64,000 nt of DNA, taken from assembly GCF_023015625.1 (NCBI RefSeq), contig NZ_JALKAH010000003.1, positions 434,001 to 498,000 on the forward strand, given 5' to 3'. The notes under the pieces were generated by a model, which did no database searches, was not told the DNA's origin, and was given only the letters and a program-made list of their open reading frames with translations. The first letter of the stretch is position 1. Every line of letters begins with the position of its first letter. Shown one piece after another: positions 1-27,561 of this stretch. The DNA comes from Yoonia sp. F2084L. GTDB lineage: Bacteria; Pseudomonadota; Alphaproteobacteria; Rhodobacterales; Rhodobacteraceae. The translations under genes and the position numbers were made by a program.

Positions 1-358
1 GCTGCACCAATTGATCATAGAACATATGCGGCAGGCGGACCCGATTGCGTACCAGAGCCAAATAACCCTCTTCGATAGACCCAGCGTCAAGTAGCGTATC
101 GCGCAAGGTCAACAGAAAGTCCCAGTTTTCACGCGCGTCGGCGTCTTGCATATTGGCCCGTTCCATCACGGTCACCGGCGCACGCGGCGTTTCCAGCAAG
201 CGCACATGCAGGGCACGTTCTGCGGCGCAGGCTTCTGGGGGTGGGACAATTTCAGGACGGGCCAGCCACGCGAGGATCAACTCATCCGTCACCTGCATAC
301 GGCCTTCTGCATCAAGCCGCGTCATATGGTGGCCGGAGGCAACCCAGAATTCTCTCAT
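1..358 (-). CDS. DUF6352 family protein (3' part cut by window edge)
   Basis: The reading frame is open from an ATG at 358 down to base 1, so 119 codons are visible and the C-terminus lies outside the window. It starts MREFWVASGHHMTRLD and continues as an acidic, mostly helical soluble protein with no signal peptide or membrane segment. The start overlaps the stop of the upstream gene by ATGA, so the two are probably translationally coupled. I recognise the order biotin/lipoate-ligase-like, DUF6505, DUF6352 from other Rhodobacterales, where it sits near formate dehydrogenase genes. The function is unknown, and the family name comes from context and remembered sequence rather than a search. 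Confidence 0.72.
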   Translation of the reverse strand, partial: MREFWVASGHHMTRLDAEGRMQVTDELILAWLARPEIVPPPEACAAERALHVRLLETPRAPVTVMERANMQDADARENWDFLLTLRDTLLDAGSIEEGYLALVRNRVRLPHMFYDQLVQ

Positions 359-23745: not shown

Positions 23746-23769
23746 CAGTGGTATCCTCACAGATATGCG

Positions 23770-23803
23770 CCCTTCGTTGGGGAAGGGTGTCCCACCTGCG
23801 GGA
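23770..23803 (-). ncRNA. Candidate serC leader RNA (two hairpins)
   Basis: Read on the minus strand, the first hairpin pairs TCCC (23800-23803) with GGGA (23790-23793) around GCAGGT. The second pairs CCCTT (23783-23787) with AAGGG (23770-23774) around CCCCAACG. The second hairpin ends about 24 bases before the serC ATG, so either could affect ribosome access. A short two-hairpin serC motif has been predicted upstream of serC in alphaproteobacteria; position and layout agree, but I could not align it to the family model. Confidence 0.55.
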
Positions 23804-26314: not shown

Positions 26315-26685
26315 TCCTCGGTCGGTCCGCCTGCTTCTTTCCAATCGCCGATGCCGCCAACATTGATGACGTTCTTGTAACCCATGTCTTTCAGCGTCTT
26401 TCCGGCGAGTGCGGCCTGACCGCCTGCACCACAAACCAAACAAAGCTCTGCATCTTTTTGGAAGATCGGATTGTGGAACTGCATGTCCGGGTCCGCCGCA
26501 AATTCAAGAAATCCGCGCGGGACGCGGTGTGCGCCAGCTATTGTGCCGGATTTTGCGATATCGCTGCTGTCGCGAACGTCAATAAACGTGGCATTTCCCT
26601 CGGTATGTTTTGCAATCGCCTGCTCGGCGGTGATGCGGACGACATTGGCGTTGGCTTCTTCAAGAAAGTGTTTGGCGGATTTCAT
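26311..26685 (-). CDS. Rhodanese-like domain protein
   Basis: This 124-aa single-domain rhodanese has TFIDVRDSSDIAKSGTIAGA at the front of the domain and the active loop LCLVCGAGGQAAL with the catalytic Cys at about 85. A single small domain of this type usually transfers sulfane sulfur or serves as a sulfur carrier. I chose the ATG at 26685, with GGGAGAGA upstream. It is convergent with the transsulfuration enzyme, giving a local sulfur-metabolism neighbourhood. Confidence 0.88.
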   Translation of the reverse strand: MKSAKHFLEEANANVVRITAEQAIAKHTEGNATFIDVRDSSDIAKSGTIAGAHRVPRGFLEFAADPDMQFHNPIFQKDAELCLVCGAGGQAALAGKTLKDMGYKNVINVGGIGDWKEAGGPTED

Positions 26686-26745
26686 CGTGTCTCTCCCTAT
26701 TCTATACATTGAATAGGTAAGATGCCGTGTTCAAATAGCCAGAGC

Positions 26746-26774
26746 AAAAAAAAGCCCGGACACAAGGTCCGGGC
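26746..26774 (-). terminator. Rho-independent terminator downstream of the response regulator
   Basis: On the minus strand GCCCGGAC, loop CTTGT and GTCCGGGC form an 8-bp GC-rich stem, followed directly by eight T residues. It ends the response-regulator transcript about 100 bases after the stop codon. Confidence 0.9.
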
Positions 26775-26874
26775 AAGTCCAACAGGGAGGTGGAGATATA
26801 ACCCGATCTCCGGCGGTATTCTTGGGAACCCGGTGACCCGACAGGGAGGGGCCTGATCACCGGGAGGAGTACTT
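26746..26874 (-). ncRNA. Structured 3' region with CUCCUCCC motifs (candidate 3'-UTR sRNA)
   Basis: Right after the response-regulator stop, the minus strand reads CTCCTCCC (26862-26869). Hairpin 1 pairs CCCGGTGA with TCACCGGG and its 20-nt loop contains CCCCTCCCTG. Hairpin 2 pairs GGAGAT with ATCTCC. A single-stranded ACCTCCCTG block follows, then the terminator hairpin and eight U residues. Three pyrimidine blocks able to pair with Shine-Dalgarno sequences, in exposed positions, resemble the CUCCUCCC sRNA family of Rhodobacterales. No reading frame is apparent. It may be a processed sRNA or a regulatory 3' UTR of the upstream gene. Confidence 0.55.
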
Positions 26875-27561
26875 CTACGCCACTAATCTATAGCCACCGG
26901 ATTCGGTCACAAGAAGGCGCGCATTTGACGGATCTGGTTCTATTTTTTGACGAAGACGGTAAATATGTGTCTCTAATGTGTGCGTCGTCACGCCCGCATT
27001 ATAGCCCCAAACCTCGTGCAAAAGCACATCACGGGCGACAACACCTTCGGTCGCGCGGTACAGGAATTTGAGGATATTCGTCTCTTTTTCCGTCAGGCGC
27101 ACCTTCTTTTCGTCCTCGGTAATCAGCAGCTTTTGGGCAGGTTTGAACGTATATGGTCCAAGCTGGAAAACAGCATCTTCGGACTGTTCATGGGTGCGCA
27201 ATTGGCTGCGCACACGGGCCAAAAGTACGGGGAATTTGAAGGGCTTACTGATATAATCATTGGCACCTGCATCAAGGCCATAGATCGTGTCAGCGTCGCT
27301 GTCCTGTGCGGTTAGCATGACGATGGGGCACTTCACGCCCTGCTTACGCATCACACGGCAAAGTTCGCGGCCATCGGTATCGGGCAGACCCACGTCAAGG
27401 ATCATCAGATCGTACAGACTTTCCTTGGCTTTGATCAGCGCGTTGGCACCATCGTCTGCCTCAAAGACGTCAAAGTCCTCGGTCATCAGCAATTGTTCAC
27501 CAAGTGCTTCGCGCAGGTCGTCGTCATCATCGACGAGTAGAATCTTCTTGAGTTGTCCCAT
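26875..27561 (-). CDS. OmpR-type response regulator (CenR-like)
   Basis: This 228-aa regulator has an N-terminal receiver domain (acidic pocket DDDDD at 11-15, phospho-acceptor Asp56 in LMILDVGLPD, Lys in YISKPFKFP). Its C-terminal winged helix has RLTEKETNILKFLYRA and ETHIYRLRQKIEP. Length, N-terminus and lack of an adjacent histidine kinase fit CenR, an essential envelope regulator in alphaproteobacteria; that identification is from family resemblance. GAAGGAGGATGTC gives a strong start. The transcript ends at a clear terminator after an unusual structured 3' region. Confidence 0.9.
   Translation of the reverse strand: MGQLKKILLVDDDDDLREALGEQLLMTEDFDVFEADDGANALIKAKESLYDLMILDVGLPDTDGRELCRVMRKQGVKCPIVMLTAQDSDADTIYGLDAGANDYISKPFKFPVLLARVRSQLRTHEQSEDAVFQLGPYTFKPAQKLLITEDEKKVRLTEKETNILKFLYRATEGVVARDVLLHEVWGYNAGVTTHTLETHIYRLRQKIEPDPSNARLLVTESGGYRLVA

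Follow-up and report, generated by a model that had tools for sequence, protein, structure and literature searches.

Two groups of described RNAs bear on the locus analysed here. In Rhodobacter sphaeroides, the mRNA of RSP_0847 (also named ompR-1 and cenR) is the source of the small RNA (sRNA) SorX, which is freed from it by RNase E (PMC6238624, PMC8625941, PMC9275681), the cleavage falling at the SorX 5' end (PMC6238624). The parent gene encodes CenR, an essential regulator (PMC9275681). SorX is an RNase E-released, Hfq-dependent RNA of approximately 75 nt (PMC6238624, PMC9438474) that represses potA and aids the cell under stress by singlet oxygen or by organic peroxides (PMC6238624, PMC8625941, PMC9438474). 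Under iron limitation the ratio of mature SorX to its precursor drops (PMC8625941), and the two forms can therefore vary independently. The CenKR and SorX literatures make little reference to each other, and SorX goes unmentioned in a paper on CenKR (PMC9275681). The second group comprises the cuckoo, alpha-r14 and CcsR RNAs, whose hallmark is a hairpin with a variable stem and a constant anti-Shine-Dalgarno (anti-SD) loop and which are described as trans-acting (PMC10746234, PMC3927594).

Here we describe the region behind the cenR orthologue of Yoonia sp. F2084L, within a stretch of 64,000 nucleotides (the window). We propose, with a probability of roughly 0.6, that the cenR 3' untranslated region (3'UTR) is a SorX precursor in which the loop of a leader hairpin forms a second anti-SD site, making pre-SorX a two-site RNA whose processing would switch its targets.

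Results

SorX behind cenR

A first-pass annotation of the window had called the host gene a CenR-like regulator, and this call was borne out: the product is an orthologue of the RSP_0847 product. It is 83.8% identical to the regulator encoded at the SorX locus of R. sphaeroides, the gene order is the same, and Asp residues at 51 and 56 match the description of R. sphaeroides CenR (PMC9275681). Behind this gene the SorX covariance model (Rfam RF02784) matches at full length (1-73) with 72 bits, compared to a gathering cut-off of 46.6 (E 1.1e-15). In R. sphaeroides 2.4.1 the match begins at 2598225, and the published 5' end of SorX behind RSP_0847 is 2,598,224 (PMC6238624). In the predicted ensemble, the seed ACCUCCCUG has an unpaired probability of 0.68-0.92. 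Homology shows that the window encodes SorX and that seed, terminator and parent gene agree with those of R. sphaeroides, and the core of the predicted element is a known sRNA. The first-pass annotation had suggested that an RNA may be released from the cenR mRNA. It was right in that a C/U-rich anti-SD-type RNA is present that is probably freed from the 3'UTR, and it missed that this RNA is already described as SorX. A search of the leader between cenR and SorX within the window found no sigma-70-like promoter, which fits SorX production by 3'UTR processing. The features of the locus are collected in Table 1.

Table 1. Features at the cenR-SorX locus, in order of transcription (window coordinates).
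Feature	Position	Strand	Basis or remark
cenR orthologue coding for an OmpR-family response regulator; its mRNA hosts the sRNA	26875..27561	minus	Pfam Response_reg and Trans_reg_C
CTCCTCCC block 3' of the cenR stop codon	26862..26869	minus	last CCC in hairpin stem; CUCCU alone free
Leader (pre-SorX) hairpin with anti-SD loop motif CCCCUCCCUG (DNA CCCCTCCCTG) at 26851-26842	26829..26864	minus	fold, covariation
Short unpaired linker; putative RNase E cleavage site that would form the SorX 5' end	26819..26828	minus	position by analogy with R. sphaeroides
Mature SorX sRNA, made up of a 5' hairpin, the seed ACCUCCCUGUUGGACUU and the terminator	26748..26818	minus	RF02784
Second hairpin (3' of the leader hairpin)	about 26812-26793	minus	
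Seed ACCUCCCUG (block ACCTCCCTG), common to SorX and SorY	26783..26791	minus	alignment; mostly unpaired
Intrinsic terminator stem-loop, then T8	26754..26774	minus	

Of the 395 genomes that represent the order in our sample, 394 have a SorX-family match, as do 140 of 140 genera; these counts pool paralogous copies, as genomes usually carry two or three related copies each. The genome analysed here has three, each combining CTCCCTGTTRGACT with a terminator: the one behind cenR, C4:837842 (52.6 bits) and C4:459530 (29.7 bits). The two away from cenR (L043:843-923; L044 around 231-293, minus strand) are SorX/SorY-type RNAs and likely paralogues with differing 5' parts. At the cenR locus itself, the ACCTCCCTGTTGG block and the terminator are kept in most Rhodobacterales genera examined, and no SorX was seen behind cenR at several cenR loci (for example L061, L068, L072 and L110). 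A separate RNA element of the window, a serC leader (RF00517, 66.4 bits; 23746-23797, minus strand), stands directly before a phosphoserine aminotransferase-like ORF.

A leader hairpin between cenR and SorX

The elements listed by the first-pass annotation are all present on the minus strand; the first of them, CTCCTCCC, is not a free motif, for its last CCC (unpaired probability 0.05, 0.0 and 0.0) pairs in the stem of the first hairpin. The loop of this leader hairpin has a predicted unpaired probability of about 0.9-1.0. The 8-mer CTCCTCCC has 31 matches in the genome (7 of them in one array) versus 21 for the reversed pattern; taken alone it was rejected as a signal, being near chance in frequency and partly paired. 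The hexamer CCTCCC is rarer than expected in the whole window (8 copies on both strands versus 29 expected from shuffles), and three of the eight fall within 83 nt at this locus. Such a cluster is not due to chance (Poisson P about 8e-8 and 4e-6, taking the observed and the shuffled rate, respectively). The element as a whole folds only modestly better than shuffled sequences (z -1.7), and the real support is therefore comparative, namely the Rfam match, loop conservation and covariation.

Scoring CCUCC or YUCCC inside a hairpin loop, we find the motif in 28 of 33 distinct leaders from the genus of the window and a small number of closely related MAGs (shuffles: mean 1.6, maximum 5), with Yoonia maritima and a Yoonia MAG among the named members of the group. 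The loop reads CCUCCC in 19 of the 28, CUCCUCCC in six and UUCCC in three. Among the 62 other Rhodobacterales leaders, none has a hairpin with an anti-SD loop. The stem covaries strongly: in the RNAalifold pair register both partners vary in 9 of 10 pairs, and 85.7% of cells are paired. There are 47 double-change cells versus 16.4 in shuffled alignments (0/500), a test weakened by the relatedness of the sequences; the signal is also lost when partners are slid, a control that preserves relatedness. In two genomes of the genus (L009 and L010) the leader hairpin is wholly absent, and SorX therefore has no need of it. The first-pass annotation had named loop motifs lost where the terminator is kept as grounds for refutation, and the outcome is split: most of the Rhodobacterales examined retain the ACCUCCCUG block of SorX, and the upstream loop is confined to the genus of the window and its close relatives. 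The leader hairpin is the new part of the element, and the alignments give good evolutionary evidence for a lineage-specific variant. As a separate observation, UACUCC right behind the cenR stop codon (26866-26871) is kept in 15 of the 28 hairpin-bearing species and in none of 80 others.

The same data bear on whether the hairpin is purely structural, a shield of the precursor against exonucleases or a buffer for the terminator, with a pyrimidine-rich loop that is incidental. Strong covarying stems would suit such a role, as would the GC-rich stem that the R. sphaeroides leader also has. However, the CCUCC or YUCCC core of the loop is kept in 28 of the 33 leaders with the stem changing freely, and we consider a purely structural role quite improbable because a pure roadblock would not keep its loop sequence.

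Another possibility is a role in cis, in which the hairpin would be a processing or stability signal (bound by RNase E, by Hfq or by a protein of the DUF1127/CcaF1 type) that sets both SorX release and the lifetime of cenR mRNA, and the CCUCCC loop would be a protein recognition sequence and not an antisense seed. By analogy with R. sphaeroides (PMC6238624), the hairpin lies exactly in the part lost on maturation. CcaF1, a DUF1127 protein, acts with RNase E in the maturation of CcsR RNAs that bear such hairpins, and DUF1127 genes are present in this genome, one of them with a CcsR-type array. Against this, a reading of the loop by CcaF1, or CcaF1 action on SorX, would be speculative, and SorX maturation in R. 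sphaeroides (L142) proceeds without the leader hairpin. We regard a cis role as unlikely, if less easily set aside, and favour a loop that would act as an anti-SD site in pre-SorX.

Candidate targets

Given that the loop is complementary to SD sequences, cenR itself might be a target: the loop and the free CUCCU could pair with the strong SD AAGGAGGAU just upstream of cenR and repress cenR translation through the tail of its own mRNA. The strength of this SD and a contiguous complement of 6 nt (UCCUCC/GGAGGA) are in keeping with such autoregulation. Yet any SD pairs with any anti-SD, and cenR has AGGAG-type SDs in species both with and without the hairpin, so that no sign of co-evolution is clear. 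We judge autoregulation very improbable.

For a loop that acts on other mRNAs, no convincing target was found in potA-like 5' regions, where contiguous matches to the leader loop are 4-6 nt long. SorX has contiguous pairings of 6-10 nt near potA-like starts, whose start codons are uncertain, and here the seed does not do clearly better than the leader loop. Separately, the gene that follows directly after SorX encodes a rhodanese domain, and its SD region AAUAGGGAG (26660-26709) forms 9 contiguous pairs with the seed CUCCCUGUU; conservation of this pairing in relatives is not obvious.

An FNR-type box in the spacer of other genera

The cenR-SorX spacer of other genera contains a different element. 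A perfect TTGAN6TCAA, absent from the window, occurs in 28 of 108 distinct spacers (expectation 0.14; no more than 2 in any of 200 random sets), among them L074, L075, L077, L082, L085, L087, L088, L090, L091, L102, L105, L116 and L148. This FNR box and the anti-SD hairpin are mutually exclusive, none of the 28 box-bearing spacers having the hairpin. In 18 of the 28, the box centre lies 72-74 nt before the CTCCC core of SorX, and in 12 of these 18 the best -10-like hexamer (TAGATT, TAGGTT, TACGGT and others) starts 29 nt past the box centre. A box centred at -41.5 is the geometry of class II FNR promoters, and with the centre at this position the start site would fall at about the SorX 5' end. 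This arrangement suggests that in Ruegeria, Roseovarius, Marimonas and others SorX is made from its own predicted promoter, responsive to oxygen or nitric oxide and dependent on FNR or Dnr. In a literature search of incomplete coverage, we found no paper that proposes an FNR-type SorX promoter.

Discussion

If the cenR 3'UTR is a SorX precursor with a second anti-SD site, the terminator (26774-26747) would end transcripts initiated at the cenR promoter. A nuclease, RNase E or another, would then cut the 3'UTR near 26818 and release an Hfq-binding RNA, stable and about 71 nt long, both steps being modelled on R. sphaeroides. The single-stranded ACCUCCCUGUUGG of this product would pair with the ribosome-binding regions of its targets, the R. 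sphaeroides target being potA, a polyamine uptake gene. As long as the leader is retained, the precursor would carry an extra hairpin whose loop displays CCUCCC, as in the hairpins of cuckoo/CcsR RNAs. With less certainty, this loop may be a second anti-SD site that is active while the precursor persists. Unprocessed pre-SorX would in that case be a two-site RNA with a target set wider than, or different from, that of mature SorX, and processing would switch between them.

A more far-reaching proposal, which we put forward tentatively and hold to be rather doubtful, is that pre-SorX of Yoonia and its relatives is a two-module anti-SD sRNA in which a grafted cuckoo-type hairpin has targets of its own and RNase E switches between the sets, and that in other genera the cenR-SorX spacer houses an FNR-type promoter that frees SorX from dependence on cenR transcription. 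The spacer between cenR and SorX appears to be an evolutionary socket, occupied by an anti-SD hairpin in one lineage and by an apparent FNR-type promoter in others. The locus is thus tractable for studying how sRNAs derived from a 3'UTR may gain modules or independence from the parent gene, and it extends the tie between CenR, an essential regulator of the envelope, and SorX, a stress sRNA, far outside Rhodobacter.

We rejected the classification of the whole element as a CcsR/cuckoo RNA: SorX makes up its mature part, and the array linked to DUF1127 in this genome is on contig C4 (1498-1776, minus strand), where seven CTCCTCCC hairpins spaced 41-51 bases apart follow directly behind a DUF1127 ORF. 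R. sphaeroides, by comparison, has four CcsR RNAs. The comparison with DUF1127-linked sRNAs drawn by the first-pass annotation therefore holds for one part of the locus: the constant anti-SD loop and variable stem of the leader hairpin fit it, whereas the mature RNA is closest to SorX and the CcsR array lies elsewhere. The leader hairpin shares with the cuckoo, alpha-r14 and CcsR RNAs an anti-SD loop on a variable stem. It departs from them in that it is a single hairpin with a looser loop, where they have several with an ultraconserved CCUCCUCCC loop, and in that its host gene is cenR, where theirs is linked to DUF1127 (ccaF1). From its sequence we read it as a putative cuckoo/CcsR-like anti-SD module fused to pre-SorX, which at most resembles a cuckoo hairpin in action and is not classed as one.

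Set beside CcsR1-4, cuckoo and alpha-r14 (the CIN1 locus behind DUF1127 genes), the leader is alike in its variable-stem hairpin, its C/U anti-SD loop, its 3'UTR location and its presumed release by processing. It differs in consisting of one hairpin, mostly with the shorter CCUCCC, in the lack of a DUF1127 gene and in its fusion upstream of SorX. SorY (RF02651) has CCUCCCUGUUGGACUU and a terminator in common with the SorX described here; nevertheless, this SorX scores 34 bits against a SorY cut-off of 111, and SorY has its own promoter (PMC6238624) and another 5' part. The closest relative is SorX of R. sphaeroides, where the parent gene is orthologous and position, seed and terminator are the same. 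The difference lies in the precursor: the 42-nt leader of R. sphaeroides pre-SorX (L142) is a GC-rich stem without an anti-SD loop, whereas the leader described here presents the loop CCCCUCCCUG.
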